Origin: a virus
DNA: 35,815 nucleotides
IMG/VR virus record: IMGVR_UViG_3300027917_000102
Location: 1 to 35,815 of that record
Strand: one strand, 5' to 3'
Position numbers and translations under genes: made by a program. The first letter of the stretch is position 1. Each line of letters opens with the position of its first letter. Below, one piece after another: positions 4,282 to 20,952 of the stretch. The notes beneath the pieces are model-generated. The model saw nothing but the letters and a program-made list of their open reading frames with translations, was not told where the DNA came from and ran no database searches.

Positions 4282-6789
4282 TTAAAAGAATGAGTTAAGT
4301 GATACTTTACGTTCTGTCTGCCACCCAATAGCGTCTAGAACTTTACGAAGTGGTTCAAGAAAAGACTTCTCGAACTGGGTCTTGTAGTCAACATACTTCT
4401 CAAGATTTAATTCTTTTGGAATCTCTTGGAAGAAAGCAATGACATTCTCCTTGATTGGGTTAGGAGTTTTAAGATAGATAAACTTGATCTTCTCGCCCTC
4501 TTGGATGAGCTGATACTTATTATCTAATTTGTTTTTCTTAATGTAGTGATTGTAAAGCAGGGCTCCTCTCACTTGGATAGGAACAGAAGCTTCTTTAGTG
4601 TATATTGTATGATGGTTTCCGTACTTTGTCAATCCGTTACACCCACGAGGGAAAGCAACGTTAGTATATTCTTGCTCTGTGGTTTCTTTCTTCACCTTCT
4701 TAATAAACGAGAAGATAGCATCGTTATCTTGAGTCAAGATAATGTCAAAGGCATCCTTAAGTTTATTACGGAAGAACTGAGGAGTGGATGAACGTTGGGT
4801 GTCCATACCACAGATCTTCATCTTTGGTTTATTGTAACGGACGCCTTCACTATCCCATACGTTGAGAACATAACGCTTCTTCGCTTTCCAGAATCCACGT
4901 TCAGCAATGTTCTCTCGCTTCATCTTCATCTTCTGGTCATACGCCGATACATAATCAGCAAGCTTCTGGTAACTGTTCTCGATAAACGGTTCCAACTTCT
5001 CCTGAGAGATCGTATCCAGAATGTTAACAATCTTGATCTTATCACCAGCAAGATGACTATAAAATTTATCAACAAGAGGTCCCAAATTAAGATAGATTGA
5101 ATCGGTGTCAGCGGCGATAACATAATCGACTTCCTCCGTTTGCAATATCTTATTTAGATATTGGTTAATATCATTTGCCACCCACTGGATAGAGAGTTGA
5201 CCGCCCAAGGTAATTGCCTCAGCAATGTCCAGGCGATAGTAACGGAAGTGTTCGTTACCGATAGCACCATAAGCAGAGTTTAGCTGAATCTTACGTGCCA
5301 TCTGAATGTTATTACATCGAGCAATCTCTTTCTTCAAAGCAGGGGTAGGAGTCTTCTCATACTGCTGCTTCGCTTCCAGCATCTTCTTTTTATAGATGGT
5401 CCGTTCGTTGTAGATCTTCTCCATCAGTTCGGGCAGGAACCCCCTGAAGGTAGTGTCATAGAACGTGCCGTTAGCACACACTGTCTGCCCCCGTAGGTCG
5501 CTCAGATCCAGTTCCTTGGACAGAAGACGGTCTACGTTAGCGGACGGGTGCTTGTGGGGCATAAGAGTCTCTGGCGAGATGTTGTACTGCATGATCAGGT
5601 GAGGGTACAGACTATTCAAGTCAAAATTCACCACCCAGTCATATAGACCAGGAACAGGTTCCTTCACATAGGCACCAGCATACTTCTCACTCTTAACAGC
5701 ACTTTCTTTCTTAGGAGGAATGACAATGTTCTGCTTAGAGAGGTAAACATAGATGATGTTATCCCACATACGAACCTGAGAATACACATCCTCAAAGTTG
5801 ACCTTGGCATCGTATGCCATGCTGACAGCAAGCTCTAGCAACTTCATCTTGTCATCCAACTGATCAACCAGTCGAACGTCATGGATGTTGTACTCGATAA
5901 ACTTCTGCCAGTTGTTGGTATAGAACTCCTTAAAAGTGTCATACTCACTGTGATCTAGTTTGTTGGCACCCAGTTCTACCTCACAGATATAGTCCAGACG
6001 ATAAGATGCCTGGTTGGTGTAGGTAAACTTCTTGTACAGTTCTAGGTAATCAAGCGTGGCAATACCAGAAATATCATAAGCAATCTCTTTCTTACCTTTA
6101 ATATAGATTTCACGACGGAGCACAGCTTTCCAGGGAGACAACATCCGTGCTTCTTTCTCCCCAAGGATACGTTCGATCCGATGAAGAATGTATGGCATAT
6201 CAAACAACTGGACGTTCCACCCAGTGATGATGTCAGGATAATCAGATGCCCACCAGTTAATGAAAGCTTTCAGCAATCCAACCTCGGTGTCAAAGTGCAT
6301 GTAAGTAACCCTAGGATCATCATTGTCAAATGGTTTGGCACCAAAAACAATGATGTTCCCAGAGGAACTATCTTTAATACTGATAGCAAGTATTTCCTGA
6401 TCAGCAGACTGAATATCAGGAAACCCATTCTCAGCAGCAGTCTCGATATCAATGTTGAACACACGGATATCTTTCATGTCATAGTCAATATAATCTTCAG
6501 AATACTCTCGGAGAATATATTGATTGATGAACCTAGTCTGTCCATATACAGGGAAGTCTTCTAGTTCCTTGTACTTGTCAATAAAATCCTTGGCATCACG
6601 AATACTTCCCATGGGGACAGAGCGTACAGGTTTACCATCCAGAGTCTTAGCTTCTACAGAAGCATTACCCGTGTCACCAACATACAAAACGGGGTTGAAC
6701 TTCACCTTGTCCGTAAACCTTTTACCGTGCTCTACACCCCGGACGAGGATGCTGTTGCCGGACTGTTGGACACTGGTGTAGAACTTCAT
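4282..6789 (-). CDS. 43: DNA polymerase, family B (gp43)
   Basis: Replicative polymerase with 3'-5' proofreading, 835 residues against 898 in T4. The exonuclease motifs are intact: Exo I has D114 and E116 in FNIDIET, Exo II has N192 and D197 in WNVQLFD, and Exo III has Y300 and D304 in YNIHD. The polymerase motifs are also intact: motif A DLNSLYP at 390-396, motif B KIQLNSAYG starting near 500, and motif C DTDS at 561-564. The C-terminus ends in SLNSFF, a hydrophobic tip consistent with a clamp-binding peptide that would dock on gp45. The ATG overlaps the stop of the upstream Sm-like gene by four bases, implying coupled translation. I see no intron or split. Confidence 0.97.
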   Translation of the reverse strand: MKFYTSVQQSGNSILVRGVEHGKRFTDKVKFNPVLYVGDTGNASVEAKTLDGKPVRSVPMGSIRDAKDFIDKYKELEDFPVYGQTRFINQYILREYSEDYIDYDMKDIRVFNIDIETAAENGFPDIQSADQEILAISIKDSSSGNIIVFGAKPFDNDDPRVTYMHFDTEVGLLKAFINWWASDYPDIITGWNVQLFDMPYILHRIERILGEKEARMLSPWKAVLRREIYIKGKKEIAYDISGIATLDYLELYKKFTYTNQASYRLDYICEVELGANKLDHSEYDTFKEFYTNNWQKFIEYNIHDVRLVDQLDDKMKLLELAVSMAYDAKVNFEDVYSQVRMWDNIIYVYLSKQNIVIPPKKESAVKSEKYAGAYVKEPVPGLYDWVVNFDLNSLYPHLIMQYNISPETLMPHKHPSANVDRLLSKELDLSDLRGQTVCANGTFYDTTFRGFLPELMEKIYNERTIYKKKMLEAKQQYEKTPTPALKKEIARCNNIQMARKIQLNSAYGAIGNEHFRYYRLDIAEAITLGGQLSIQWVANDINQYLNKILQTEEVDYVIAADTDSIYLNLGPLVDKFYSHLAGDKIKIVNILDTISQEKLEPFIENSYQKLADYVSAYDQKMKMKRENIAERGFWKAKKRYVLNVWDSEGVRYNKPKMKICGMDTQRSSTPQFFRNKLKDAFDIILTQDNDAIFSFIKKVKKETTEQEYTNVAFPRGCNGLTKYGNHHTIYTKEASVPIQVRGALLYNHYIKKNKLDNKYQLIQEGEKIKFIYLKTPNPIKENVIAFFQEIPKELNLEKYVDYKTQFEKSFLEPLRKVLDAIGWQTERKVSLNSFF
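4604..4632 (-). promoter_or_regulatory. Possible internal sigma70 promoter within gene 43
   Basis: On the minus strand TTGACA (4627-4632) is followed after exactly 17 bases by TACAAT (4604-4609), reading toward uvsX, gp41 and mazG. It lies inside gp43 coding sequence (residues GLTKYGNHHTIY), so chance or codon constraint cannot be excluded. Confidence 0.35.
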
Positions 6790-7058
6790 TCTGTTTCTTT
6801 CTTTCGGTTGGAGTGGTAAAGGGAAGCTAGAGCATCATCAACATCAGAAGTGATACTAACATCCGAAGAACGAATGTAGATCTCTCTGTTCCCAGAGAAG
6901 GGAGGGAATACGGAAAGAACTGTACCTTTTCCGGCGCCCAACTGCTCAAGCGAGTACGGATATTTTAGCACACAATCGGGATCACCCCACTCGGATTCTG
7001 GAATTGTTTCAATTTCAGAAACAACCCAGAACCCATCAAGTCTAAAGATTTGAATCAT
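6786..7058 (-). CDS. Sm-like small protein, third of a coupled trio before gp43
   Basis: This is a 90-residue protein, the most divergent of five related small proteins in the window. It follows the shared template: an opening strand (IQIFRLDGFWVVSEI), a hydrophobic strand ending in a Pro-aromatic pair (VLKYPY, near residue 35), a strand with FPPF, and a last strand with a short helix (SSDVSITSDVDDALASLYH). The template suggests an Sm/LSm-type beta barrel, and I recall a solved crystal structure of a Sm-like protein of putative cyanophage origin. The ATG overlaps the stop of the preceding gene by four bases, and its own stop overlaps the gp43 ATG by four bases. Function is unknown; RNA binding or ring assembly is inference from the fold. 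Confidence 0.75.
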   Translation of the reverse strand: MIQIFRLDGFWVVSEIETIPESEWGDPDCVLKYPYSLEQLGAGKGTVLSVFPPFSGNREIYIRSSDVSITSDVDDALASLYHSNRKKETE

Positions 7059-7447
7059 CCCATTGTTACTCCAGCTACAGAAACATCCGAAGCCCAGATA
7101 CTCTTAGTCTCTGGTTTTGGATTCTTAGCTTCTTCGATTCTCTTTTCCGCTGCCTCTACCTTAGCTTCATACGCTTTTCTAAGACTCTCTTCTGGTTCAC
7201 CAATGGTTAGAACAGAATCATACGGAATCTTATACTGATACTCAGAAGAGAAAGGCATCCACCTAGTAAACTGGACTTGTACTTCTTTAGATGGTTCATC
7301 AGTTGGTTTTGAAACCAGATCAAGTTTAAAAGGATGTGCCATCATTAGACAAACACCACGCTTGTCTTCGCCCTCTCCTTTAAAAACCTCTTGGAGATTA
7401 GTAACTACTGTTTCTCCAGTCATCAACATAACTACACTTGGTTTCAT
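7055..7447 (-). CDS. Sm-like small protein, second of a coupled trio before gp43
   Basis: This 130-residue protein carries the clearest family signature. It opens with SVVMLMTGETVVTNL, has an HPF pair in the next strand (near residue 38), WMPF in the third strand, and a last strand VLTIGEP leading into a charged helix (residues 86-107). A C-terminal tail of about 40 residues, rich in Lys and Glu and then Ser and Val, is absent from the shorter paralogues. GGAG lies eight bases before the ATG, which overlaps the stop of the upstream gene (ATGA). The Sm-like assignment rests on the shared strand pattern with the proteins at 10666, 20560, 7444 and 6786. No function is established from sequence alone. 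Confidence 0.8.
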   Translation of the reverse strand: MKPSVVMLMTGETVVTNLQEVFKGEGEDKRGVCLMMAHPFKLDLVSKPTDEPSKEVQVQFTRWMPFSSEYQYKIPYDSVLTIGEPEESLRKAYEAKVEAAEKRIEEAKNPKPETKSIWASDVSVAGVTMG

Positions 7448-7788
7448 TCTTCAATCTCCTGTTGTTCTTGATTCATAGAAGCTGTTGCTCTCTCTGCCCA
7501 CACGGGATCAAAGGGGCTAACTACTTCAATATATTTTTCTTTGATGAAGTTCTTTGGTTCGGCAATATGCCTACATCCTCCAAATCCCAGACGGATTTCA
7601 TTATCCTGAATATAAGGATTGTACGCAGAGAATCTAATATTTGTCTTACCCTCTTCGTCAACTTGATTTTCCAGGAGGAAAGGATAAGACATCAGGAAAC
7701 AAAGAGACTCTCCATCAGGTGACTTTAGTTCGCTTAGTCTAGTAATGATACTAGTATTGTCAGTCAAAACAACAACTTTAATGTCCAT
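7444..7788 (-). CDS. Sm-like small protein, first of a coupled trio before gp43
   Basis: This 114-residue protein starts at the ATG at 7788; a GTG three codons upstream is possible but less likely. It follows the family layout: first strand IKVVVLTDNTSIITRL, second strand CFLMSYPFLL with the Pro-Phe pair, third strand FSAYNPYI, and a last strand CRHIAEP followed by a helix ending in KYIEVV. The TGE of the paralogues is replaced by TDN, so the turn after strand one has diverged. The stop overlaps the start of the next gene (ATGA). It is the first gene after the hsp20 terminator and would be the promoter-proximal gene of the trio-gp43-uvsX-gp41-mazG unit. Confidence 0.8.
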   Translation of the reverse strand: MDIKVVVLTDNTSIITRLSELKSPDGESLCFLMSYPFLLENQVDEEGKTNIRFSAYNPYIQDNEIRLGFGGCRHIAEPKNFIKEKYIEVVSPFDPVWAERATASMNQEQQEIEE

Positions 7789-7810
7789 AGTTATCACAAA
7801 GAATAATTAG

Positions 7811-7839
7811 AGTATACCATAAAAATACGAAGGGGGCAA
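7811..7839 (-). promoter_or_regulatory. Possible sigma70 promoter for the Sm-like/gp43 unit
   Basis: On the minus strand TTGCCC (7834-7839) is followed after 17 bases by TATACT (7811-7816), 23 bases before the ATG at 7788. The -35 box lies in the stem of the hsp20 terminator hairpin. The -10 matches five of six consensus bases and the -35 four of six. Confidence 0.45.
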
Positions 7840-7848
7840 GTGCCCCCT
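7818..7848 (-). terminator. Intrinsic terminator after hsp20
   Basis: GGGGGCA (7832-7838) pairs with TGCCCCC (7841-7847) around a two-base loop. Read on the minus strand, the hairpin is followed after TTCGTA by a short T run (7821-7825). It starts nine bases beyond the hsp20 stop codon and would separate hsp20 from the gp43 unit. Confidence 0.8.
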
Positions 7849-7855
7849 GTATAAT

Positions 7856-8293
7856 TTATTCTGTTAAGAGTTGGGGTGACGAACCACCAATTTCGTAAAC
7901 GGTTTTCTTTTGGTGTTCCGGAATAATTTTTTCCAGAGAAATTAGAAGTAGACCGTCCTCAAAACTTACGTCTTGGATTCTTACGTCATCTGCTAACTGC
8001 CACGAATGATTAAAGGATCGTTTAGATAATCCTTTGTGGAGATACTGGACTTCAGAATCTCGGTCTTGAACTTTGGAGGTAACTTTGAGAATGTTTGATT
8101 CAGAAGAAACTTCAATCTCCTCTGCTTTAAAGCCCGCCAAAGCGATTTCAATTTCATAATTGGAATTGTCTCTCTTTAGAATATTATACGGAGGATAATT
8201 GGTAGTTTTTGTACTCAATGTATCCAAAGCGGAAAGCATTGAGTCGATACCAATTCCGTAAGGATACAATGTATCCCAGCTGTATTTATTCAT
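7856..8293 (-). CDS. hsp20: Small heat-shock protein Hsp20
   Basis: Alpha-crystallin-type chaperone that would hold unfolding proteins in large oligomers; it is common in T4-like cyanophages. It is 145 residues from the ATG at 8293, chosen because AAGGAG lies six bases upstream; a longer frame from 8362 has no ribosome site. The alpha-crystallin domain runs from about residue 33 (YPPYNILKRD) to 130. It contains the characteristic AGF turn followed by KAEEIEVSSESNILKVTSK and ends with a GLLLISL strand, the equivalent of the A-x-x-x-G-V-L signature. After it comes a short hydrophilic tail. The gene lies between regA and a strong terminator and forms a short unit. Confidence 0.95.
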   Translation of the reverse strand: MNKYSWDTLYPYGIGIDSMLSALDTLSTKTTNYPPYNILKRDNSNYEIEIALAGFKAEEIEVSSESNILKVTSKVQDRDSEVQYLHKGLSKRSFNHSWQLADDVRIQDVSFEDGLLLISLEKIIPEHQKKTVYEIGGSSPQLLTE

Positions 8294-8348
8294 GGTTGTC
8301 TCCTTGTATAAGCGAGTAACTTTGTATGGACCCCGAAGGCATCCAATA

Positions 8349-8356
8349 CTATTTAA
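8349..8356 (-). promoter_or_regulatory. Weak late promoter-like box ahead of hsp20
   Basis: The minus strand reads TTAAATAG, 56 bases upstream of the hsp20 ATG in the 105-base gap before it. It matches the TAAATA core seen ahead of virion genes but is farther from its gene than the others. Confidence 0.3.
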
Positions 8357-8398
8357 ACGCAATTACAAAATAGAGACTAGTGAGAAGACCGAACTTTT

Positions 8399-8524
8399 TT
8401 ATACGGACATCAGTATAGTATAACCCATTCTCCTCACCCAATCTAAGTGTGCCTTACCCCAAGGTACGGTCATCCACTCAGTCTTGTTATCTTTAAGGAG
8501 CATGAGTTTTACTGTTCGATTCAT
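8399..8524 (-). CDS. Small hypothetical protein after regA
   Basis: This is a 41-codon frame beginning six bases after the regA stop codon. The protein starts MNRTVKLMLLKDNKTEWM and continues TVPWGKAHLDWVRRMGY; it is amphipathic with several Trp residues. There is no clear Shine-Dalgarno, but the closeness to the regA stop would allow re-initiation. It is in line with the dense minus-strand coding and fills an otherwise empty stretch. I do not recognise the family. Confidence 0.55.
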   Translation of the reverse strand: MNRTVKLMLLKDNKTEWMTVPWGKAHLDWVRRMGYTILMSV

Positions 8525-8529
8525 AACGT

Positions 8530-8943
8530 CTATTTTTTTCTACCGATATTGTACTTACTTTCTAACGTCCACTTATCTTTATCTTTAAAAGATAACACTT
8601 TGATCTGCGTTAGAGGAGCAATGTCTACAATTTTTTCAGGATAGATAACTGAAATGAGTCCCCAGTCAGACAACAGCTGAATGATCCTATTTCTACGTTG
8701 AATGTCATTCAAAGAAAAATTTGTTGCCTTACCATCAAGAGCAAACAGTTCTTTAAAATGTACAATATAATAACGTCCTTGCTTGTGGAGAATGTGGCAA
8801 GACTGATAGATTTTTTTCTCTCTACGTGATGCCACCCCAATACGGGTTAGTGTTTCTCTTACTTTAAGGAAATCATCTGGTTGATTCAAAGAGATCTCAA
8901 CCATATCTGATTGCTGCCACTGGATATCAATGTCAGTTGTCAT
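8530..8943 (-). CDS. regA: Translational repressor RegA
   Basis: RNA-binding repressor that occludes ribosome sites of early mRNAs, including clamp-loader and its own transcripts in T4. It is 137 residues, against 122 in T4. Family hallmarks are the N-terminal MVEISLNQPDDFLKVRETLTRIG, the core CHILHKQGRYYIVHFKELFALDGK (residues about 49-72) and the conserved stretch ending RRNRIIQLLSDWGL. The ATG overlaps the gp62 stop (ATGA), reproducing the gene 62-regA adjacency of T4. The C-terminus is basic (KYNIGRKK). In T4 RegA targets are AU-rich start regions; most starts in this window have weak ribosome sites, which would suit it. Confidence 0.95.
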   Translation of the reverse strand: MTTDIDIQWQQSDMVEISLNQPDDFLKVRETLTRIGVASRREKKIYQSCHILHKQGRYYIVHFKELFALDGKATNFSLNDIQRRNRIIQLLSDWGLISVIYPEKIVDIAPLTQIKVLSFKDKDKWTLESKYNIGRKK

Positions 8944-9335
8944 AACATTCCGCCTTTATTCAATGCTTTTCTTATACTTTCTAGTTGCTCGTTAGTTAAA
9001 ATATCTAGAGCTTTCAAAGCTTTATCATGGTTATAACCATAATATTCTTTAACTAGATCAAGATGATCCAGTGTTTGCTTTTTAACCCACGGAGTAAATC
9101 TTTTCCGTGGCTTCAAAGTATTTATAAGAAAATCATATTGAAGACGTTTATCTAAATGAGAGTTCTTATTCATCTCGTTGGCAAATAGGATAGCGTCCTT
9201 GTGCCCAGACAAACATTTATTTACAATGAAAGGAGGATAACTCTTCTCTGTAGAAGGATCATCCTCAATAATATTCTCTTTAGACTGGTTGATAGATTTC
9301 ATCCAGTCATTAAGTTCTACTCGTTTTTTCTCCAT
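8940..9335 (-). CDS. 62: Clamp-loader small subunit gp62
   Basis: It partners gp44 in the ATP-driven loader that opens gp45 rings onto primed DNA. The protein is 131 residues, shorter than the 187 of T4 but usual for cyanophages. The diagnostic core is YPPFIVNKCLSGHKDAILF (from about residue 34), followed by LDKRLQYDFLINTLKPRKRF. The C-terminal part is helical and ends in a helix of the form LDILTNEQLESIRKAL. Its stop overlaps the regA ATG. Unlike in T4, gp62 is not next to gp44: five genes including a DNA methylase intervene, so the strict gp44-gp62 translational coupling of T4 cannot operate here. Confidence 0.94.
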   Translation of the reverse strand: MEKKRVELNDWMKSINQSKENIIEDDPSTEKSYPPFIVNKCLSGHKDAILFANEMNKNSHLDKRLQYDFLINTLKPRKRFTPWVKKQTLDHLDLVKEYYGYNHDKALKALDILTNEQLESIRKALNKGGML

Positions 9336-9345
9336 TCTTTTCCCA

Positions 9346-9486
9346 TTAGAAGACGGCAGTCACAGAAACAACTTTAGCGTGAGGGTTACGAGCAAGGGCA
9401 GTCTCCCTTGCCTCTTCGTAGTTACGAGCGTGGACAATCTCTTCAAAGATTTTGCCAGCAACGTAGAGTTTAACTTGAACTTTCAT
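9346..9486 (-). CDS. Small conserved hypothetical between dam and gene 62
   Basis: This 46-residue protein starts MKVQVKLYVAGKIFEEIVH and continues ARNYEEARETALARNPHAK, ending in a beta strand VVSVTAVF. The beta-alpha-beta layout, with an N-Y-E-E-A-R helix start, looks like a small folded domain rather than random sequence. I recall similar small proteins in cyanomyoviruses but no function. The start overlaps the end of the methylase gene by 17 bases, and the stop lies 10 bases before the gene 62 start, so it is likely part of the same transcript. Confidence 0.75.
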   Translation of the reverse strand: MKVQVKLYVAGKIFEEIVHARNYEEARETALARNPHAKVVSVTAVF

Positions 9487-10330: not shown

Positions 10331-10478
10331 TGTACTTCAGGTATTCACGAAAGATATGTTTCATCTCCCTCTCTGTCATACCACAATGAGCGGCAGCATT
10401 AGGAAGGTTCATTGTAGCATGAAAGAGAGCTTCGTTTGCTTCTTTAACATTCTCTGGCGTAGTTTTAACTTTACTCAT
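10224..10478 (-). CDS. Conserved hypothetical, helix-turn-helix-like
   Basis: This is an 84-residue protein. Residues 8-52 are helical, with the pattern ANEALFHATMNLPNAAAHCG then MTEREMKHIFREYLKYN, which has the spacing of a helix-turn-helix of the type that recognises DNA, though I cannot assign a family. The remaining 30 residues (after DYQIPEDPA) are Pro- and Arg-rich and are read from DNA that also encodes the methylase N-terminus in another frame. That tail may therefore be an extension gained when the methylase gene was inserted. The ATG overlaps the upstream stop by four bases. I recall similar N-terminal segments in cyanomyoviruses, of unknown function. Confidence 0.72.
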   Translation of the reverse strand: MSKVKTTPENVKEANEALFHATMNLPNAAAHCGMTEREMKHIFREYLKYNAPDYQIPEDPASLPRRQVQSTLKTPPVRPGLEGV

Positions 10479-10669
10479 ACTTCACCAGCATATTCAAAAT
10501 CTTCAATAGAAGATACAGGAACTTCATGTTCATTTGCAATAAGATACCAATGCTCACCATCTCGTTCTCCAAGATACTTCATTTGGTCTTCATCAAAAAC
10601 ATGCTCACGCATTGCTGCTTGGATCTTAAGGTGGATAAGATCTGATTTAGAGGGAACAGATAAGGTCAT
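10475..10669 (-). CDS. Small conserved hypothetical
   Basis: This 64-residue acidic protein has an N-terminal helix (SDLIHLKIQAAMREHVFDED), a central YLGERDGEHWYLIANE strand pair and an acidic end (SSIEDFEYAGEV). It carries ATGA overlaps at both ends, with the Sm-like gene upstream and the helix-turn-helix-like gene downstream, so it is translated as part of the clamp-loader transcript. I do not recognise the family and suggest no function. Confidence 0.72.
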   Translation of the reverse strand: MTLSVPSKSDLIHLKIQAAMREHVFDEDQMKYLGERDGEHWYLIANEHEVPVSSIEDFEYAGEV

Positions 10670-10953
10670 ACGATTAACTTCTTAGAGGGGGATTTAATAA
10701 TAGAAAACATTTCAGTATATTGTTCTTCAATTTCTGGTTGAGTCTCGGCAATATAAACTACATATCCTTTAGCTACATTAATGTCTTCGTTCTTTCCTTT
10801 GAACAAAGGAGACCAAGGAGCAAACCCAATGTTACCTTGTCCTGTAGGAACACCAACAATAGGATTTTGAATGGTTATCACATCAGTGCCATCCTCAATA
10901 AGGTCGGCAATAACATCTTCACCAGACCACATACGAATTAGTTTAACGTTCAT
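10666..10953 (-). CDS. Sm-like small protein next to clamp loader gp44
   Basis: This 95-residue protein is close to the minimal form of the Sm-like family found five times in this window. It has the opening strand VKLIRMWSGEDVIADL, then VITIQNPIVG, then IGFAPWSPLF, and a last strand YVVYIAETQPEIEEQY that turns into a helix. The S/T-G-E motif after the first strand and N/H-P in the second are shared with the proteins at 7055 and 20560. The ATG overlaps the gp44 stop by four bases, and its own stop overlaps the next gene. The placement inside the clamp-loader transcript argues for a role tied to replication or to the mRNAs of replication genes, but this is inference. Confidence 0.82.
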   Translation of the reverse strand: MNVKLIRMWSGEDVIADLIEDGTDVITIQNPIVGVPTGQGNIGFAPWSPLFKGKNEDINVAKGYVVYIAETQPEIEEQYTEMFSIIKSPSKKLIV

Positions 10954-11903
10954 TTGAATTCACAACTCATCATAATTTCAATAAGACATGCCAAAAGATT
11001 GATTTCCTGGTCAGGAACAACCTCAATGTCCCTACTGTATTTGGCAATACAAAGAACAAGCTCAGGAATAGAGCTCTTCTTCATGACAGACTCCTGTGCC
11101 AGAGAATCATAGATCCTACGGAAGACAAGAGAAATATCATTGTTCACGTTTTCCACAACCCAGCGGCGAACAGTGGTAAACTCTCGGTTCTTCAAAGCTG
11201 TAGAAAGAGAACCAATATTAAGGTCACCTACCTCAGCAAGAACAGAAGTGTCCAACGTACCAGAGGAACTGTAACGCTGCACTTCATTGATCAAACGACG
11301 CCAGTCTGGATAATACCTCTGTACCACCTTAACCAGAACCTTCTGATCAAACTCCACTCCCTTCTCTTTCAGGATATCCTGAAGGCGATTAAAGAACTGA
11401 AACTGTAGCTGTTGGACTTCTTCTTTCCTAATGCTGAAGTCAACTACGGTACAACGGGAATGGATAGGTTCCATAATCCTGTTAGGGAAGTTACATGTAA
11501 GAATGAACCTACAGTTACCACTAAACTTCTCCATGGCATGACGAAGAGACATCTGTACAGTCTCAGATGTATTGTCTGCCTCATCAATGATGACGACCTT
11601 ATGCTTAGCAGTATCAGATAGTCCGACAGTTGTAGCAAACTGAGAGATCTTAGTACGAAGAGTATCGATCAAACGACCTTCATCAGAACCATTGATCTCC
11701 ATAACAGTTGCTCCTAGTTCCTCACACAAAGCACGAGCAACGGTTGTTTTACCAACTCCTGCAGAACCACAGAGCATAAGGTGAGGAATCTCACCCTGCT
11801 CAAGGAACGACTGAAAATGTGTTTTGCTGGATTGAGGTAAAATACAATCGCTAACCTGTTGAGGACGATACTCTTCTACCCACAAAAAATTCTTCTTCTT
11901 CAT
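10950..11903 (-). CDS. 44: Clamp-loader large subunit gp44 (AAA+ ATPase)
   Basis: AAA+ ATPase that, with gp62, loads the gp45 clamp. It is 317 residues, almost the same as the 319 of T4. Walker A is CGSAGVGKT at residues 45-53, Walker B is VVIIDEAD with DEAD at 107-110, sensor 1 is in FILTCNFPN (about 133-141), and the SRC arginine-finger motif is at 149-151. The C-terminal collar domain follows. The start overlaps the gp45 stop (ATGA), and the stop overlaps the Sm-like gene. Confidence 0.96.
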   Translation of the reverse strand: MKKKNFLWVEEYRPQQVSDCILPQSSKTHFQSFLEQGEIPHLMLCGSAGVGKTTVARALCEELGATVMEINGSDEGRLIDTLRTKISQFATTVGLSDTAKHKVVIIDEADNTSETVQMSLRHAMEKFSGNCRFILTCNFPNRIMEPIHSRCTVVDFSIRKEEVQQLQFQFFNRLQDILKEKGVEFDQKVLVKVVQRYYPDWRRLINEVQRYSSSGTLDTSVLAEVGDLNIGSLSTALKNREFTTVRRWVVENVNNDISLVFRRIYDSLAQESVMKKSSIPELVLCIAKYSRDIEVVPDQEINLLACLIEIMMSCEFK

Positions 11904-14308: not shown

Positions 14309-14347
14309 GGGTGTTTGTTGTTGATGTAGTTAGTATAGGGCAGGATG

Positions 14348-14364
14348 ATCGGATTTTTTCCGAT
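14348..14364 (-). other. Hairpin between peptidase/VWA and cobS-like genes
   Basis: ATCGGA (14348-14353) and TCCGAT (14359-14364) can pair around a five-base homopolymer loop. It lies in the 70-base gap between the two genes. There is no T run, so it is unlikely to be a full terminator; it may tune the ratio of the two proteins. Confidence 0.4.
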
Positions 14365-14378
14365 GATGGTCCAGTTTT

Positions 14379-16502
14379 TCAGCTGACCACCGAAGCAAAG
14401 GAAGACAAGATTTTTTTGTTCGTTGTCTTAGATTTTAGCATAGTTTTAAATGCTCTAGTAATTTGTGCTTTGGAAGCCTCACTTTCCACCTCAAAGTCAT
14501 TATTAGAAGAGAGACTACTGTTAGCCATGTAATAGATGGAATCATAACCAACGTTGTTGAACTCCCATGATTTTTCTTTCCTCCACTTCTTCATGATGTT
14601 ATCAGGAACATATTGACCAGATGTAGCATAGCGACGGAAGGCAGAAGTAAAATCACCAGTGGTGCCAATACGGAATCCAACCAAGTTAACTTCAGGAAAA
14701 TTGTCTTTGAGGTTTTGAATTAGTGCTTGAGTAGCACCGAAGTAGTTATCCGAGATAGCGTAAGTTTTACCAAGTTTACGATCACGTAGTTGATTGCCAT
14801 CATCAAGAGTTCGAACACCAAAGTATTCGCTATTAGTACGCTCAACTTTCACACTATACTGACAACCAGCAGATTCACCATCAGTCAAGATGCATACTGT
14901 AGTTTTCTGAGAACCGGTCTTCTTATTGAAATAAGGAATAATTTCATGAAGAGTGAGAATAGCATCGTTCAAAGGAGTACCACTCAGATCACAACCGACA
15001 GGTATAGTGTACTTGTCATAGAAATATCTACGACCAAAGTAGTAAGCAAAACGGTAGAGATTAAGAATAGCTTTCTCAAAATCTTTGGGGTTAGCAGAAG
15101 AAGAAACAAAGTTGAGCAGACTGGTTCGCTGGTGAATACCAAGTTTCAAGTGCTCACGAACACTTTTTTCTTTAGTGTATTCATACTCAGGATTAATCAA
15201 ACAGTTATTCCACTCATAGGTAAAGGCATACAGTTCAAAAGGAATCTGAACCTTACGGCAGAACCACATAAGATTAATCAGCTGCTTAACGGTAGATTCA
15301 ATAATCTGAGTCATAGAACCAGACCAGTCAAGAATAAAAATCATACCGTGGTTCTTACCGTCAGGCAGAACAGTCACTTTCTTGAACAGGTCATCATTGT
15401 ACTTATAAGTATGTAGCTTCGAAGTATCAAGAACACCAGTCTTAGATGTTGCTGCCCTTGCATAAGCATCAGCAGACTTCTTACACTCAAACTCTTTTAC
15501 CAAATAGTTTACTTCCTTCTGAGCATTTGATTTAAACTGACGGAACTCTTCATCAGCATTTTGGAAGATGTCATCTCCACGACATTCTACATTCTGTTTC
15601 CAGCAGGATTCAATATAGTTGTGTAAGTCATTGAAAGAAACAATGATCTCATCAATATTATTTTTCCCACGTTCTACATACTCAGAACCATTAGACCAAG
15701 AAGTTTTATTATTGAGTCTCTCAGCATTTTGATCAAATGCTTTCTGAGTTTCAGAACGTTCTTCACCAGGACCAGAAGCACTTCCACCCCCTTGCCGAGA
15801 TTGATTGCCAACGGGAGCATCTTCATTGGCATTACTTTCCTCGTTGGCATTTCCGTTGGCATTCTCACCTTGTTCCTGAGAGGGAACATTCTGGGTTGTG
15901 TCACCACCGCTGCCAGTGGATTGTTCCTGAGCGGGAGCATCATCAACCTTCTCTTCTTTCTTCCGTTTGATGAAATCATCCAGCAAACGAACAATAACAG
16001 TAACGTCAGCAAAAGTTTCTGCTTCTTCGATCATAAAGAGAAAGTGCTTCTCGTCATCTTGAAAAGGAACGAGAGCAAAAGCACCAATCTTAAAGTGAAG
16101 GTTAAGACGGTCAAGCAAACTCATCTCTCTAATATCCTTGTCTTTAATATCAAAGAAATCTACTTCATTAAGCTCAGTATATCCTTTGAAGAAATCCCGA
16201 GCAAGACCAGGATAACGACGCTTGATCATCTTCTCAATTCGAGCATCCTCAACCACGTTGTAGTAATCCATGGGGATACTACTGTCCCACTGATCACGGT
16301 CTGCTGGAGTGTAGAGAGCGTGACCGACTTCATGTCCTACCAACAGATCGTAGACGGTCTCACTTGCTTTATCCCACAGAGGCAGAGTGAGTACCCGAGT
16401 GTCTACGTTAAAAGAAGCTGTGCTGACCTTACGGTTCTCAACCACAAGGTTCTCGGTGGCAAGCAGGCGGGCGAGGTTGCCCTTGATCTCTTGGTTATAC
16501 AT
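14379..16502 (-). CDS. Metallopeptidase/VWA-domain protein, CobT-like partner of CobS
   Basis: This is a 707-residue protein in three parts. The N-terminal domain has HEVGH at residues 57-61 and NVVEDARIE at 82-90, the arrangement of a zinc metallopeptidase whose third ligand is the downstream Glu. A disordered acidic linker (about 184-253) is rich in Asn, Glu, Gly and Gln. The C-terminal von Willebrand A domain has a complete MIDAS: DWSGS at 392-396, T509 in LSGTPLND and D541 in ILTDGES. This architecture is like CobT and other VWA partners of MoxR-type AAA+ ATPases, here followed by that ATPase. The substrate is unknown. The intact HExxH suggests protease activity, which the annotation peptidase in related phages reflects. 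Confidence 0.85.
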   Translation of the reverse strand: MYNQEIKGNLARLLATENLVVENRKVSTASFNVDTRVLTLPLWDKASETVYDLLVGHEVGHALYTPADRDQWDSSIPMDYYNVVEDARIEKMIKRRYPGLARDFFKGYTELNEVDFFDIKDKDIREMSLLDRLNLHFKIGAFALVPFQDDEKHFLFMIEEAETFADVTVIVRLLDDFIKRKKEEKVDDAPAQEQSTGSGGDTTQNVPSQEQGENANGNANEESNANEDAPVGNQSRQGGGSASGPGEERSETQKAFDQNAERLNNKTSWSNGSEYVERGKNNIDEIIVSFNDLHNYIESCWKQNVECRGDDIFQNADEEFRQFKSNAQKEVNYLVKEFECKKSADAYARAATSKTGVLDTSKLHTYKYNDDLFKKVTVLPDGKNHGMIFILDWSGSMTQIIESTVKQLINLMWFCRKVQIPFELYAFTYEWNNCLINPEYEYTKEKSVREHLKLGIHQRTSLLNFVSSSANPKDFEKAILNLYRFAYYFGRRYFYDKYTIPVGCDLSGTPLNDAILTLHEIIPYFNKKTGSQKTTVCILTDGESAGCQYSVKVERTNSEYFGVRTLDDGNQLRDRKLGKTYAISDNYFGATQALIQNLKDNFPEVNLVGFRIGTTGDFTSAFRRYATSGQYVPDNIMKKWRKEKSWEFNNVGYDSIYYMANSSLSSNNDFEVESEASKAQITRAFKTMLKSKTTNKKILSSFASVVS

Positions 16503-16671
16503 GGGTTGTTTCGCTGATGTAGATACTATAAGACCCCCGACGCTTGCCGGAGGTCTTAAGGTGACAGTTCTTCAAGTGTCTGAGGGCTTGCTTCCTTGCT
16601 TTGAGTCTCCCCTTACAAGTGCCCTTACCGTTCTTGTCTTTACCAGAGTTGTGTTGCCAGTTGGGTGTCAT
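16495..16671 (-). CDS. Small basic hypothetical protein
   Basis: From the ATG at 16671 this is a 58-residue, strongly basic protein: MTPNWQHNSGKDKNGKGTCK, then GRLKARKQALRHLKNCHLK. Two Cys and several His could bind a metal, and the charge suggests nucleic-acid contact, but I do not recognise a family. A GTG start at 16704 would lengthen it, but lies upstream of the predicted transcription start. The 3' end overlaps the peptidase gene by eight bases and contains an inverted repeat, so the C-terminal 15 or so residues may be shaped by that structure rather than by protein function. Real coding status is uncertain. Confidence 0.5.
   Translation of the reverse strand: MTPNWQHNSGKDKNGKGTCKGRLKARKQALRHLKNCHLKTSGKRRGSYSIYISETTHV
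16530..16557 (-). repeat. Inverted repeat upstream of the peptidase gene
   Basis: AAGACC (16530-16535) pairs with GGTCTT (16552-16557), and after one mismatch CCG (16537-16539) pairs with CGG (16548-16550), with an eight-base loop. It lacks a T run on either strand. It shares the AAGACC...GGTCTT arms with the strong terminator after gene 23, so it may be an attenuated relative of that terminator. Confidence 0.5.
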
Positions 16672-16675
16672 TGTC

Positions 16676-16692
16676 CTGTGTATGCTACACAG
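16676..16692. promoter_or_regulatory. Perfect palindrome at a predicted transcription start
   Basis: CTGTGTA (16676-16682) and TACACAG (16686-16692) are perfect inverted repeats around TGC. The site lies just downstream of a predicted -10 box, so it could be an operator or form a 5' hairpin on the transcript. Confidence 0.5.
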
Positions 16693-16694
16693 TA

Positions 16695-16723
16695 TGTATA
16701 CCACAAAATCAGGTCTCTGTCAA
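16695..16723 (-). promoter_or_regulatory. Sigma70-type promoter for the peptidase/cobS/clamp unit
   Basis: On the minus strand TTGACA (16718-16723) is followed after 17 bases by TATACA (16695-16700). The -35 is perfect and the -10 matches four of six. It overlaps the last codons of gene 46 and points into the small basic gene, the VWA peptidase and beyond. Confidence 0.55.
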
Positions 16724-18424
16724 CACACTGTAGTTCTTTACTTTCTCAAACGTATATGTCTTATCAAACTTATCGTTCATAGACTCACGGTGACTGATAA
16801 CAAAGACGTTAGTTTTATCGTCAAAGTTTCTCAGAATCCAACCGAGTTCACTACCACCTTGCTGGTCAAGAGACCCATCAAAGATTTCATCTAAGATAAG
16901 GAGATTAGTATCCACGCTATTCTTGAGCTTAGCAACAGAGCGCCAAGTAAGCAGAAGAGCGATATCGATACGAGCTTTCTCTCCTTCGCTGAAGGATTCG
17001 TAAGAAAAGACATCCCTGAATCTTGATTTGATGGTTTCTTCAAAGTTCTCGTCCAAACTAAAGTCAACATAGAAGTCCATGTTCTGAAGATATTGAGCAA
17101 TAAGTTTGTTCATCACAGGCAAATACTTCTTGATGATACGTGATTTAATACCACTATCTTTAAGAAGCTGTGATGCTGTGAGTAAACAATCCATCTCTTC
17201 TTTAGAACTGACATACTCTTTCTCCATATTCTGGAGTTGAGAGTTGAAGTAGTTTAGCGTCTCAGATGCCTCATTTGTCTCCGTCTTAAGATTTCTTAAA
17301 GATTTCAGTTCGGATTCAATCTGAGTGATCTCTGCCTTATTGTGATCTTCAGACTTATGATTAACAGCAAGATCTGTAGTGAGTTCACTTATCTTGTCCG
17401 TGAGAGCAAACATATGTTTCTCTCTTTCTTCATATCGTAATACTTCTTTCTGGACTTCAATCATCTCTGCCTTAAGATCATTGACAGAAGAAATAATACT
17501 AGAGAGTTTTTCCTTCTTAATATTCTCAGATATTTCCTGGGAACATGTAGGACATGAAGTATTGTCAGTAAAGAAGTTATGTTGATCCTTATACTGAGAA
17601 ACTTTTAGTTCAATGTTTCCCTTCTGCTTGAGAACTTTTACTCTCTCATTTTTATCCTTAGAATACACAGCAATACTTTTGTTAACATCTTCAAGATTCA
17701 TTAACAGAGCAGCTGTTTTGTTCTTGAGATCAATCTTTTCTTTTTCTAGAAAGTCAAGCTTCTCTTCTTTGCCTTTGATATCAGTCTCGTTTCTACGTTC
17801 AATATCGTTGATATACTTTTCTTGTAGATCTTTCTTCTCTTTCAAGATGTCGATCTGATAATCTAGATTACGAATCTCACTGTTACCGATCTTGATTTTT
17901 TCCTTGAGGTTTTGATTCATCACAGAAAAGATCTGGATGTCAAGGATGTCTTCGATGATCTCACGACGAGATGCAACAGGCAACCTCATAAAAGGAACAA
18001 AGGTACTGCTGCCCAGCACAACAATCTGAGTGAAAGATTTATAGTTCATTTTGAGCACGTTCTGCTCAAAATTCTTCTGCTGATCTACAACCGTAGACTC
18101 TTGATTCCAAAGGTTACCGTTGTGATAGATCTCAAACTTAGCTGGTTTGATACCCCTAACCACTTTGTACTGATCTTTACCAATACAAAATTCAATCTCC
18201 ACAAGACAATCTTTTTCATTGATACTATTAACAAGCATAGGCTTGTTAATTTTACGAAAAGGTTTTCCGAACAACGAAAAGGTAAGAGCATCCAGAATAG
18301 TGCTTTTACCAGCTCCGTTCTTACCCACAATAAGATTGGTCTTATCATTATTTAGAGAAACCTCTGTAAAAACATTTCCCGTAGAAAGAAAGTTCTTCCA
18401 GCGAATCTTTTCAAATATGATCAT
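16709..18424 (-). CDS. 46: Recombination endonuclease subunit gp46 (Rad50-like)
   Basis: SMC-type ATPase that with gp47 resects DNA ends for recombination-dependent replication and, in T4, host DNA degradation. It is 571 residues (560 in T4). Walker A is GKNGAGKST at residues 34-42. Coiled-coil arms flank a zinc-hook CPTC at 291-294, which dimerises Rad50-type proteins. The C-terminal lobe has the ABC signature region FSEGEKARIDIALL and Walker B LLILDEIFDGSLD. The ATG overlaps the upstream DUF3110-like stop by four bases. The last codons (NYSVLTET) contain a -35 box for the next unit. Confidence 0.96.
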   Translation of the reverse strand: MIIFEKIRWKNFLSTGNVFTEVSLNNDKTNLIVGKNGAGKSTILDALTFSLFGKPFRKINKPMLVNSINEKDCLVEIEFCIGKDQYKVVRGIKPAKFEIYHNGNLWNQESTVVDQQKNFEQNVLKMNYKSFTQIVVLGSSTFVPFMRLPVASRREIIEDILDIQIFSVMNQNLKEKIKIGNSEIRNLDYQIDILKEKKDLQEKYINDIERRNETDIKGKEEKLDFLEKEKIDLKNKTAALLMNLEDVNKSIAVYSKDKNERVKVLKQKGNIELKVSQYKDQHNFFTDNTSCPTCSQEISENIKKEKLSSIISSVNDLKAEMIEVQKEVLRYEEREKHMFALTDKISELTTDLAVNHKSEDHNKAEITQIESELKSLRNLKTETNEASETLNYFNSQLQNMEKEYVSSKEEMDCLLTASQLLKDSGIKSRIIKKYLPVMNKLIAQYLQNMDFYVDFSLDENFEETIKSRFRDVFSYESFSEGEKARIDIALLLTWRSVAKLKNSVDTNLLILDEIFDGSLDQQGGSELGWILRNFDDKTNVFVISHRESMNDKFDKTYTFEKVKNYSVLTET

Positions 18425-18684
18425 GTTAAATCTTCCGGTGGTATCAACAGGGTATCACCCGTTATTATAGCATACTTCTGATCTCTGTCTTCACAGGCAC
18501 CCAGAATGACATCAGCCTCAATCTCATAGACCTGCATCTCAGGGTAGTCTGGAATATCTTCAATCATCAAATAATATCTCTCAGCATCATCTTCGTTCTC
18601 AAACAGAGGAATGATGTGATCCCCAAAATCATCTAGGACGGAGAACACACCTTCTGGTTTATCTTTGAGAGTGAGGATATACAT
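18421..18684 (-). CDS. DUF3110-like small protein between gp47 and gp46
   Basis: This is an 87-residue acidic protein. The segment FENEDDAERYYLMIEDIPDY (about 28-47) followed by QVYEIEADVILGACE and a C-terminal LLIPPED matches the pattern I know from DUF3110, a family of cyanobacteria and chloroplast-bearing organisms with a characteristic F-E-x-E-D-D-A-x-R-Y helix. If correct, it is a host-type gene carried by the phage. It is fused tightly to both neighbours: its ATG overlaps the gp47 stop by one base and its stop overlaps the gp46 ATG. That location hints at a link to the gp46/47 nuclease, but no biochemical role is known to me. Confidence 0.78.
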   Translation of the reverse strand: MYILTLKDKPEGVFSVLDDFGDHIIPLFENEDDAERYYLMIEDIPDYPEMQVYEIEADVILGACEDRDQKYAIITGDTLLIPPEDLT

Positions 18685-19718
18685 TAGATAACTTCACAGC
18701 TTTCAATATATAGGGTGTTTAATAAGTTTTTTAATTTTTGTTTGTCTACTGTTAGCTCGACTTCATCAACGTATTCACTGAGAAGTGTCATAGTATCTTT
18801 AATCTCAATGTCATCATCAACACCTTCATCTGATCCGACAAGACTTTCAATGATCTTAATTTCATGAACACCAGTGTCATACAGTTTGTCAATTACTTTT
18901 TCAAACTGTAGGTAGTCTTTTTTCTCTTCTACAATGACTTTGACAAAACAGTCTTTGTATAGATCGTAATCGATTTCTTGATGCTCTGTATCGTTGTAGT
19001 AAAGCTTCTGGAAAATCTCATATGGATTGTTGATAGGAGTGAGACGATTGGTCTCAGTATCGTAGATATGAAAACCACGAGTATCCTTGTAATCATTCCA
19101 GAACATTTGATATGGGTTACCAAGATACTGGATGTTACCTTTCTTAGAACGATGATGGAAATGACCCGACCATACACGATCAAATTTTTTGAATGGTGCT
19201 GGATCCATACCATGATCCATTCTCATCCCAGGTGTCACCTCAAATCCCGTGAGTTCAAGATGTCCACATACAATGTCTGCGTCACTGTCTTCAATCGTTC
19301 GAAGAATTTCCTCTTTATTCTCGCTATTGATCCAAGGGAGCATGAGGAATTGTTTGCTTCCAAGTCTGATGTGTTCTGGTCTGGAGTAGATTCTGATGTT
19401 TTCATATTGCTCTAACAGTAACTCGGGTGAATTAATCCTATTAGTATTTTTATAATAAGTACAATGATTACCGATAAGCATATGCACTTTGTAATCTTTT
19501 AGCTTATCAAAGTAGTTTACCTTGGCACGTTGGAACGTATTGAAATCCATTGACTTACGATTGTCAAAGGTATCTCCTAAATCAATAATAGTTTCTACTC
19601 CATGTTTTTTTAGAGTAGGAAAGAACACGTTGTCATAAAACTTCTGCCAGAAATTCCAGAAGGCAAGAGATCCTTTCCTACCGTCAAGATGCTGATCTGT
19701 GATTAAAGCGATCTTCAT
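18684..19718 (-). CDS. 47: Recombination endonuclease subunit gp47 (Mre11-like)
   Basis: Metallophosphoesterase nuclease subunit of the gp46/47 complex. It is 344 residues (339 in T4). The five phosphoesterase motifs are visible: D8 and H10 in ITDQH, GDTFD at 48-52, GNH at 83-85, GHLE in the middle region, and GHFHH further on. The remaining C-terminal third is the gp46-binding and capping region, acidic around ESLVGSDEGVDDDIE. The gene overlaps the upstream 76-residue frame by four bases. Confidence 0.95.
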   Translation of the reverse strand: MKIALITDQHLDGRKGSLAFWNFWQKFYDNVFFPTLKKHGVETIIDLGDTFDNRKSMDFNTFQRAKVNYFDKLKDYKVHMLIGNHCTYYKNTNRINSPELLLEQYENIRIYSRPEHIRLGSKQFLMLPWINSENKEEILRTIEDSDADIVCGHLELTGFEVTPGMRMDHGMDPAPFKKFDRVWSGHFHHRSKKGNIQYLGNPYQMFWNDYKDTRGFHIYDTETNRLTPINNPYEIFQKLYYNDTEHQEIDYDLYKDCFVKVIVEEKKDYLQFEKVIDKLYDTGVHEIKIIESLVGSDEGVDDDIEIKDTMTLLSEYVDEVELTVDKQKLKNLLNTLYIESCEVI

Positions 19719-19945
19719 AGTTTACCTCCAACAAATCCATCGTTAAGAACACGGCTTTCTTCCCATCCTTCCTGTAATCCTTTTAGATAAAATCTAGTCA
19801 TACGAATACATACATCTTTTGATAGTGCCGTGACTAACTCTTTACCTTCTTTGTTAGCACTGTGCCAAATCTTGAATCTAGTTTCATAAACATGAAAGGC
19901 ATCATCAATCCAATCTACTTCAGCAATTTCTGGATGTTCATTCAT
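19715..19945 (-). CDS. Conserved hypothetical between gp55 and gp47
   Basis: This 76-residue protein has an acidic N-terminus (EHPEIAEVDWIDDAFHVYET), a helix around KIWHSANKEGKELVTALSK and a second helix DVCIRMTRFYLKGLQEGW, ending in a glycine-rich tail. It has ATGA overlaps with gp55 upstream and gp47 downstream, so it is translated as part of the gp55 unit. I recall a small gene at this position in cyanomyoviruses without an assigned function. Confidence 0.75.
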   Translation of the reverse strand: MNEHPEIAEVDWIDDAFHVYETRFKIWHSANKEGKELVTALSKDVCIRMTRFYLKGLQEGWEESRVLNDGFVGGKL

Positions 19946-20433
19946 CGGTTCATCTTCGTCTCAATGTTTTCTTTAATGCTACCCATCTCAGAATAAGAAG
20001 CATTCATGCCTGCCATATCACCATCGTATGTATCTGTATGCATAACGTGTTCGTATCCAGAACGCTCAAGAACTTTGTTCTTAATTTCTTGCTGTTTGTT
20101 TTCTTTTTGAATACGGCGAAGAAAAGCGTAGTAAATAATTTGAGTGAAGTAAGCAAACGGGTTCTTTGATTTCTCGGGATTAAAGTTATTGATATACTGT
20201 ACACAGTTTTCAATACCGTCCGAGATCATGTCATCTCGATAAGTATAGTTTACAAAATTTGGTTTAAAGGATAACCTATTTGCAATTTTTAAAAAACACT
20301 CACCGATGTAGCGAGGAATGACAGGACGAGTTTTACCCTCTGCTTCTGCTTTCTCACACTTTTTCTTGTATACAATAAGAGCTTCTAAAAAGTCCTGATT
20401 ATTTACATAGTGTTCTGGATTTTTCTTGGTCAT
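19942..20433 (-). CDS. 55: Late-transcription sigma factor gp55
   Basis: Sigma70-family subunit that redirects host RNA polymerase to TATAAATA-type late promoters. It is 163 residues (185 in T4). Region 2 is recognisable: YTYRDDMISDGIENCVQYI followed by NNFNPEKSKNPFAYFTQIIYYAFLRRIQKE (about 65-115), the conserved core that binds polymerase and the -10 box. Region 4 is absent, as in T4 gp55, and the C-terminal tail is short. The gene has its own consensus sigma70 promoter 30 bases upstream, which fits its early or middle expression by unmodified host polymerase. It overlaps the 76-residue gene by four bases. Confidence 0.95.
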   Translation of the reverse strand: MTKKNPEHYVNNQDFLEALIVYKKKCEKAEAEGKTRPVIPRYIGECFLKIANRLSFKPNFVNYTYRDDMISDGIENCVQYINNFNPEKSKNPFAYFTQIIYYAFLRRIQKENKQQEIKNKVLERSGYEHVMHTDTYDGDMAGMNASYSEMGSIKENIETKMNR

Positions 20434-20462
20434 ACATACGGTGTTTGCTTATCATGACAAAC

Positions 20463-20491
20463 ATTATACATCTGTATCACGCTGTTGTCAA
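20463..20491 (-). promoter_or_regulatory. Consensus sigma70 promoter of gene 55
   Basis: On the minus strand TTGACA (20486-20491) is followed after exactly 17 bases by TATAAT (20463-20468): both boxes are perfect. It lies 30 bases upstream of the gp55 ATG. Confidence 0.85.
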
Positions 20492-20503
20492 GAGGGCTTG
20501 ACA
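20486..20503. repeat. Palindrome joining two divergent -35 boxes
   Basis: TGTCAAG (20486-20492) and CTTGACA (20497-20503) are perfect inverted repeats around AGGG. The arms hold the -35 boxes of the minus-strand and plus-strand promoters, so one dimeric protein bound here could block both. Confidence 0.65.
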
Positions 20504-20526
20504 GAACCTCAGAAACTAAGTACAAT
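20498..20526 (+). promoter_or_regulatory. Divergent plus-strand sigma70 promoter (antisense)
   Basis: TTGACA (20498-20503) is followed after 17 bases by TACAAT (20521-20526) on the plus strand. It points against all genes, into the 3' end of the Sm-like gene at 20560 and of uvsW. No coding frame of note lies downstream, so any product would be an antisense RNA. Confidence 0.6.
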
Positions 20527-20559
20527 GACTCTGTTAAGGGTTGAAAGACATATAGGCTC

Positions 20560-20952
20560 TTAGCTTTTCTTATAGATATTCTCTAAGAAGTTCTTTGCTT
20601 CTTTTACAGAACCTAAGTATCCCATTCTCTTGGAGAACTTTTCTGGTTTGATATCAATAGTTTCAGGATCTTCATTCAAACCATTCACGTAAAAGTTTTT
20701 GATCTCATCATCTAGTTCGGACATTGTAATGATCTGTTCCCTAGGGATAACAAACATGTCATCGTATGTAGATGTAATCCATTCTTTTAAGATGAACCCA
20801 GAAACTTGTTTGCCTTTCTTTTTCTGTACCATCTTCTCTACTAGCATAGGATTATGCAATAGTACAGAATCTTCTTCTGGCAAGAAACATACTTTAGCTA
20901 CTAATTCTTCACCCGACGTTAATTTAATAGTTGAATAAAATTCTTCTTCCAT
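20560..20952 (-). CDS. Sm-like small protein after uvsW
   Basis: This 130-residue protein begins with the family strand YSTIKLTSGEELVAKV, then VLLHNPMLVEKM with the N-P pair, a third strand after a basic loop (QKKKGKQVSGFILKEWI) and a last strand FVIPREQIITMSELDDEIKNFY that turns into a helix. A C-terminal helical extension of about 45 residues (ending VKEAKNFLENIYKKS) is specific to this member. Its ATG follows the uvsW stop directly, so it is read with uvsY and uvsW. It is the last gene before the promoter pair that starts the gp55 unit. The Sm-like fold is inferred from the pattern shared with four other proteins in this window. Confidence 0.8.
   Translation of the reverse strand: MEEEFYSTIKLTSGEELVAKVCFLPEEDSVLLHNPMLVEKMVQKKKGKQVSGFILKEWITSTYDDMFVIPREQIITMSELDDEIKNFYVNGLNEDPETIDIKPEKFSKRMGYLGSVKEAKNFLENIYKKS

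Follow-up and report, generated by a model that had tools for sequence, protein, structure and literature searches.

Why would a phage keep several Sm-like proteins in the midst of its replication genes? The question is raised by a 35.8-kilobase virus record (IMG/VR record IMGVR_UViG_3300027917_000102, analysed as a whole and hereafter called the window), whose minus strand carries a T4-like cyanophage cluster of genes for replication, recombination and late transcription. An earlier note, made from the sequence alone, had claimed five Sm-like open reading frames (ORFs) at 6786, 7055, 7444, 10666 and 20560; all five are present at those coordinates on the minus strand and are here numbered P1 to P5:

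6786..7058, minus strand: P1, the gp43-proximal Sm-like protein, 90 amino acids (aa); DUF6561/PF20198, PHROG 483
7055..7447, minus strand: P2, in the middle of a tandem trio of Sm-like proteins, 130 aa; PHROG 431, with P3 as its sister group
7444..7797, minus strand: P3, the Sm-like protein that opens the trio, 117 aa with a GTG start; DUF6561, PHROG 431
10666..10953, minus strand: P4, the Sm-like protein linked to gp44, 95 aa; PHROG 527, the clade closest to 3BY7
20560..20952, minus strand: P5, the Sm-like protein linked to UvsW, 130 aa; Pfam Sm_like PF16243, PHROG 471

In identity and in fold, these proteins are almost certainly paralogues of one phage-specific Sm-fold family, that of PDB entry 3BY7. 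Each is a member of a subfamily that holds a position of its own in this cluster among T4-like phages that lie outside the T4 family proper.

One family from five proteins

The kinship of the five is established principally by profile comparison. Iterated searches of 7,971 ORFs from 247 sequences, started from each single protein, converge on essentially the same 398–401 ORFs; each time the remaining four proteins are among them, and nothing else from the window is. In hhalign, the ten possible pairs align over 58–96 columns, and nine of them outscore all 50 control pairs with neighbouring families. The lack of significant profile similarity that the earlier note had named as a refutation was not seen. 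The strongest pairs are P2–P3 (expectation value, E, 4e-26), P3–P4 (3e-10) and P1–P3 (4e-9). The weakest, P1–P5 (E 0.08), is by itself no different from the controls, and P1 is joined to P5 only via P2/P3 and PHROG 483. P2 of the window is just 13–18% identical to the other four.

Family databases divide the same proteins among several entries. P5 matches Pfam Sm_like (E 5e-9), while P1 and P3 match DUF6561 (9e-13 and 3e-6); P2 falls just under both cut-offs, and P4 of the window matches neither. The P3 family bridges the two, all 31 of its members matching DUF6561 and six of them Sm_like as well. The PHROG matches overlap in a similar manner: 471, 483, 527 and 431 for P5; 527, 431 and 471 for P4; 431, 471, 527 and 483 for P2; 431 and 483 for P3; and 483 for P1. 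Among phage records (E up to 0.01), homologues number 419 for P5, 355 for P4, 73 for P2, 34 for P1 and 29 for P3, and the records that hold them are almost all cyanophages. Relatives of P1–P3 were collected from upstream of gp43; pattern searches of IMG/VR gave one near-identical contig only.

The common template that the earlier note had described is real and above chance, though imperfect, as several motifs are missing from some members. A proline in strand 3 (YPY, HPF, YPF, NP and NP) and a tyrosine in the helix are found in all five window proteins. The [S/T]-G-E at the end of the first strand is confined to P2, P4 and P5, and W/F/Y-x-P to P1–P4, P5 having WIT instead. Across 43 aligned family members, conservation of at least 90% is reached only by the strand-1 glycine, the strand-3 proline and the helix tyrosine. 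The most conserved parts are features specific to a subfamily, among them the end of P4 (PSKKLI) and the conserved C-terminal tail of P5 (residues about 109–130).

Fold and ring

The top PDB match of all five subfamily profiles is either 3BY7 or TIP60, a cage that has this LSm pentamer as its basis (E 5e-11 for P4 with 3by7, 1e-8 for P3, 5e-5 for P1, 5e-5 for P2 with TIP60, and 0.02 for P5). AlphaFold models were made of P1 and P3, the two least certain members, and the fold of P2, P4 and P5 is drawn from sequence. Both AF2 models are confident (predicted local distance difference test, pLDDT, 89.5 and 92.7) and show a Sm-like barrel followed by a helix at the C-terminus. In the Foldseek check that the earlier note had proposed, both found 3by7 first, at E 2.7e-4 with a template-modelling score (TM-score) to the target of about 0.75–0.85 for P1, and at E 1.5e-5 with 0.83–0.92 for P3; LSm and Sm proteins came next. 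A comparison of the P3 model with a library of viral structures also gave matches to uncharacterised proteins from phages of Burkholderia, Ralstonia, Stenotrophomonas and Agrobacterium.

The crystal structure of a Sm-like protein that the note mentioned is 3BY7 itself (GOS protein JCVI_PEP_1096686650277, of putative cyanophage origin), which shares both fold and family with the five and has P4 as its nearest subfamily. The structure report is said to have proposed a cyanophage origin and a pentamer, and the entry holds five chains. A homologous gene was placed on GOS marine phage contigs in 2008 (PMC2530865). The LSm part of TIP60, which belongs to this phage Sm family, has been called pentameric (PMC10374429); the cage is engineered and implies no biological function. 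By analogy with 3BY7, each of P1–P5 may form a small ring, the likeliest being a homopentamer. A heteromeric ring that needs all five, one form of the assembly the earlier note had entertained, is unlikely: complete relatives have three or four members, several of them without the gp44-linked one, and since copy number varies between phages, one ring cannot depend on having all of these subunits. The obligate five-subunit hetero-ring was rejected on these grounds.

Canonical Sm/LSm proteins (PF01423) and Hfq share with P1–P5 the Sm-type barrel and the Sm1 glycine and are the structural neighbours after 3BY7. They differ in carrying an N-terminal helix before strand 1, whereas in the P1 and P3 models a strand comes first and a helix last, and in the Sm2 Arg-Gly signature of the RNA-binding loop, which the five families do not have. 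The Pfam LSM profile has no match in the window or among the five proteins.

Fixed places in a conserved cluster

The neighbours of the five genes, with two sequence patterns that bear on their expression, are as follows:

4282..6789, minus strand: gp43 DNA polymerase, directly downstream of P1
7831..7848, minus strand: terminator-like stem between Hsp20 and P3 (pattern only)
8940..9335, minus strand: gp62 clamp-loader small subunit, whose N-terminus has a short motif in common with the P5 tail
10950..11903, minus strand: gp44 clamp-loader large subunit, directly upstream of P4
19942..20433, minus strand: gp55 late sigma factor, after P5 and preceded by its own promoter-like site
20463..20491, minus strand: promoter-like site TTGACA-17-TATAAT in the P5–gp55 gap (12 of 12 matches; pattern only)
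20953..22413, minus strand: UvsW helicase, directly upstream of P5

In full, the cluster reads UvsY, UvsW, P5, gp55, a 76-aa protein, gp47, a DUF3110 protein, gp46, a peptidase, CobS, two small proteins, gp45, gp44, P4, two small proteins, Dam, gp62, RegA, Hsp20, P3, P2, P1 and gp43, the same order as in annotated S-PM2, Syn9 and S-CAM3.

Whole-genome profile searches of complete phages, together with annotation, located 25 family members in seven complete cyanophage genomes, all at three places: seven after UvsW, three after gp44 and 15 between Hsp20 and gp43. S-PM2, P-SSM2 and S-CRM01 have three members each, and Syn9, S-CAM3, P-HM1 and ACG-2014f four each; the window has five. A weak partial match in P-SSM2, inside a 310-aa frame (195896-196033), was left out of the count. 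The same searches gave no family match in T4, KVP40 or Ma-LMM01. The uvsW gene of P-HM1 is annotated in two pieces (L260:907-2386), and the Sm-like gene follows as usual. The paralogue expansion that the earlier note claimed is accordingly real and sited in the replication and recombination cluster; its description of the copies as dispersed is better replaced by three fixed places within one conserved cluster.

The UvsW–Sm–gp55 order extends to phages of unrelated hosts, namely HTVC008M (Pelagibacter), DLP6 (Stenotrophomonas) and phiM12 (Sinorhizobium), the phiM12 assignment resting on one profile match (E 6e-4) plus position. In DLP6 a further copy lies a few genes upstream of gp45. A tree of 99 sequences groups the copies by position and not by phage, with P2 and P3 as sister groups. 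Support is 0.96 for the P1 clade, 0.99 for P4, 0.99 for P2 and 0.99 for core P5 (0.65 for the wider UvsW clade), and weaker for P3; 3BY7 lies beside the gp44 clade at 0.82. The UvsW-linked copy of DLP6 falls within the P3 group and the HTVC008M copy near the gp44 group, both at low support, and the deep branching obtained from this 80-residue domain is therefore tentative. The UvsW-linked copy is probably the oldest, judging by its spread and not by the tree. No cellular source was found when contigs of bacterial and archaeal genomes were scanned once with the P4 alignment, a scan that used two short patterns only and leaves distant relatives possible.

Two further features of the window deserve mention. 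The DUF3110 protein (18421-18684) is strongly acidic, with an isoelectric point (pI) of 4.05, and overlaps gp46 and gp47; it follows gp47 closely in 63 of 67 loci, an unstudied small protein locked, like the Sm-like ones, into recombination genes. At 1128-1216, ARAGORN reports a tRNA-Ser (TGA anticodon) and Rfam a tRNA-Sec; this is most probably a normal serine tRNA whose variable arm is long.

Junctions and expression units

All five genes, and not four as the earlier note had it, abut or overlap gp43, gp44 or UvsW directly or through the coupled trio. P1/gp43, P2/P1, P3/P2 and gp44/P4 each overlap by 4 nucleotides (nt), and UvsW/P5 meet at 0 nt. Across loci, the P1–gp43 junction lies within -12 to +3 nt in 67 of 69, with a 4-nt overlap in 62 of 69, and the UvsW–P5 junction is tight in 78 of 81; P5 is never tight to gp55. 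The promoter-like site in the P5–gp55 gap suggests that P5 ends a UvsY–UvsW–P5 unit, and the terminator-like stem between Hsp20 and P3 suggests that P3–P2–P1–gp43 form a unit of their own. Taken with the junction counts, these two patterns mean that the Sm genes probably travel as UvsY–UvsW–P5, gp45–gp44–P4 and P3–P2–P1–gp43. A further sigma-70 promoter-like site, matching 11 of 12 positions, lies at 20498-20526 on the strand opposite to the perfect site upstream of gp55.

Charge, Sm motifs and a peptide in common with gp62

All five subfamilies are acidic, with median pI of 4.25, 4.42, 4.67, 4.82 and 5.03 from P1 to P5. The Sm1 glycine, between strands 1 and 2, is invariant in the P1, P2, P4 and P5 alignments and present in 22 of 31 P3 sequences. 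The Sm2 Arg-Gly occurs in none of the five family alignments: with the site placed by eye from strand order, P1 alone keeps the Arg, followed by Ser, and the position is mostly Pro in P2 and P3, Thr or Ser in P4, and a mixture of Lys, Pro and Arg in P5. The acidic charge and the missing Sm2 Arg-Gly together leave canonical RNA binding unproven, and they speak weakly against a chaperone of the Hfq type that pairs small RNAs with mRNA.

The tail of P5 (RMGYLGSVKEAKNFLENIYKKS; window 20563-20628) resembles the N-terminus of gp62 (ELNDWMKSINQSKENIIED; window 9276-9335), the two having in common the motif [YWF][LMIV].S[IVL]..[ST][KR]..[LIVM]. This 12-residue pattern matches 115 of 126 gp62 and 49 of 84 P5 sequences and no other ORF among the 7,971. 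In gp62 the motif is widespread, HTVC008M included, and among P5 proteins only those of some cyanophages show it clearly. The pattern was drawn after both sequences had been seen, and the comparison was repeated over whole genomes with an unselected 22-column profile of the P5 tail. By this profile gp62 ranked second of 1,306 ORFs in S-PM2, second of 1,423 in Syn9 and sixth in S-CAM3, and only 37th in P-HM1 and 33rd in the window. None of 60 column-permuted profiles placed gp62 in the top 0.5% in three of the five sets (null drawn on a 300-ORF sample). Since absolute scores are low and the genomes related, the likeness is a lead and not a finding. Another candidate twin of the P5 tail, the C-terminus of gp55 ('MGSIKE' against 'LGSVKE'), is lost in divergent phages and outscored by gp62, and is treated as chance or a helix cap.

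What might the rings do?

The best explanation of the whole, one that could well be right and could equally be wrong, is that Sm-fold paralogues at fixed positions act as ring adaptors. In the mechanism we tentatively put forward, itself somewhat doubtful, each ring would dock on the replication or recombination machine encoded next door: P5 on UvsW, P4 on the gp44/gp62 clamp loader, and P1–P3 on gp43. Docking would be through the subfamily-specific C-terminal helices and tails, and any contact with RNA or single-stranded DNA would be made only via a ring face that does not have the classical Sm signature. The acidity, the missing Sm2 Arg-Gly, the subfamily-specific conservation and the variable copy number are more readily explained by rings that dock on several different partners than by a single general-purpose RNA chaperone, and the likeness of the P5 tail to gp62 also points to docking. 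A bolder extension, which we think distinctly unlikely, is that in many T4-like phages outside the T4 family such rings are standing parts of replication and recombination, with the UvsW-linked ring and gp62 carrying the same docking peptide and sharing or competing for one partner.

Several observations count against the adaptor explanation. Adjacency is weak evidence of function because the whole cluster is conserved and most of its junctions are tight (10 of 16 non-Sm junctions equally so), and abutment was dropped as an argument for this reason. The Arg at the Sm2 site of P1 is invariant (35 of 35), and some canonical LSm proteins are acidic too, so that charge alone leaves RNA binding possible. 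The match of P5 to 3BY7 is weak, P5 passing Pfam Sm_like instead; the modelled folds are those of P1 and P3; and the 22-column profile does not see the P5–gp62 likeness in two of the five sequence sets.

Conceivably, the proteins are RNA chaperones or translational regulators, forming Hfq-like rings on phage mRNAs or small RNAs and perhaps acting together with RegA, whose gene is close by, to tune expression of the gp43, gp44 and UvsW messages to which they are coupled. The Sm fold itself, with LSm proteins as next-best structural neighbours, speaks for this, as do the Sm2-site Arg of P1, a conserved Lys beside that site in P4, and the tight coupling to the gp43 start. Moreover, Hfq is missing from most Prochlorococcus strains (PMC2518516), a gap that a phage protein could fill. 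Set against this are the acidity of all five families, the absence of Sm2 Arg-Gly, the lack of a Pfam LSM match, and a search of the window that found no known RNA family near the genes. Sinorhizobium, host of a phage that carries the family, has its own Hfq; simple replacement of Hfq is therefore disfavoured, and the chaperone explanation as a whole seems rather unlikely. The same acidity, joined to a Sm fold without the RNA-binding signature, would suit proteins that bind and inhibit or redirect a host nucleic-acid enzyme, as the Sm-like Rof blocks the host Rho ring (PMC11018626). Such an assignment is improbable, as the genes keep a fixed place inside the replication cluster and not in host-takeover regions, and are retained by phages of very different hosts, which makes a single host target unlikely. 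Cyanobacteria are also not known to have Rho.

A structural role has its own precedent in the T4 neck, where a hexamer of host Hfq is a transient genome gate (PMC12270204), and phage-made Sm rings might stand in for it as neck plugs. This is very improbable: the genes lie among replication and not neck genes, 3BY7 is pentameric while the neck is six- and twelve-fold, and one plug needs no five paralogues. Scarcely credible is the proposal that the five are unrelated small β-barrels alike in composition only. The low identity between subfamilies and the non-significant P1–P5 alignment would allow it, and it is opposed by the PHROG models, the iterated profiles, the common top PDB match and two agreeing fold models.

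Known systems and significance

The fold family is already known; the fixed-position paralogue set appears to be undescribed in the open-licence literature searched. There, no report was found that describes the five paralogues as a set, the fixed positions of that set or its occurrence in phages of other hosts, nor any functional study of these Sm-like proteins. 3BY7 is one single solved protein, in contrast to the set of paralogues at fixed positions described here. Pfam PF16243 (Sm_like) and PF20198 (DUF6561, of unknown function) are two separate families that are here joined in one, and PHROGs 431, 471, 483 and 527 correspond to the four subfamilies, three of them labelled 'unknown function'. 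A comparison of 26 cyanophage genomes counted 16 hypothetical core genes, its main text leaving Sm-like proteins unmentioned (PMC3037559). PHROG 471 and cyanophage homologues of P5 (for example L001:6007-6405) are widely labelled 'methylamine utilization', a name for which no supporting match was found in Pfam or NCBIfam. Many 'hypothetical' or so misnamed proteins of abundant marine phages could thus be renamed.

Sm rings are nearly always treated as RNA machines, and their fold is chiefly familiar from RNA splicing. Here, three to five copies stand beside a polymerase, a clamp loader and an R-loop helicase, and phages of cyanobacteria, Pelagibacter, Stenotrophomonas and Sinorhizobium all conserve the copy linked to the helicase. 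The arrangement raises the question of whether the Sm rings of phages take a direct part in replication and recombination or control the messages for the proteins that do.

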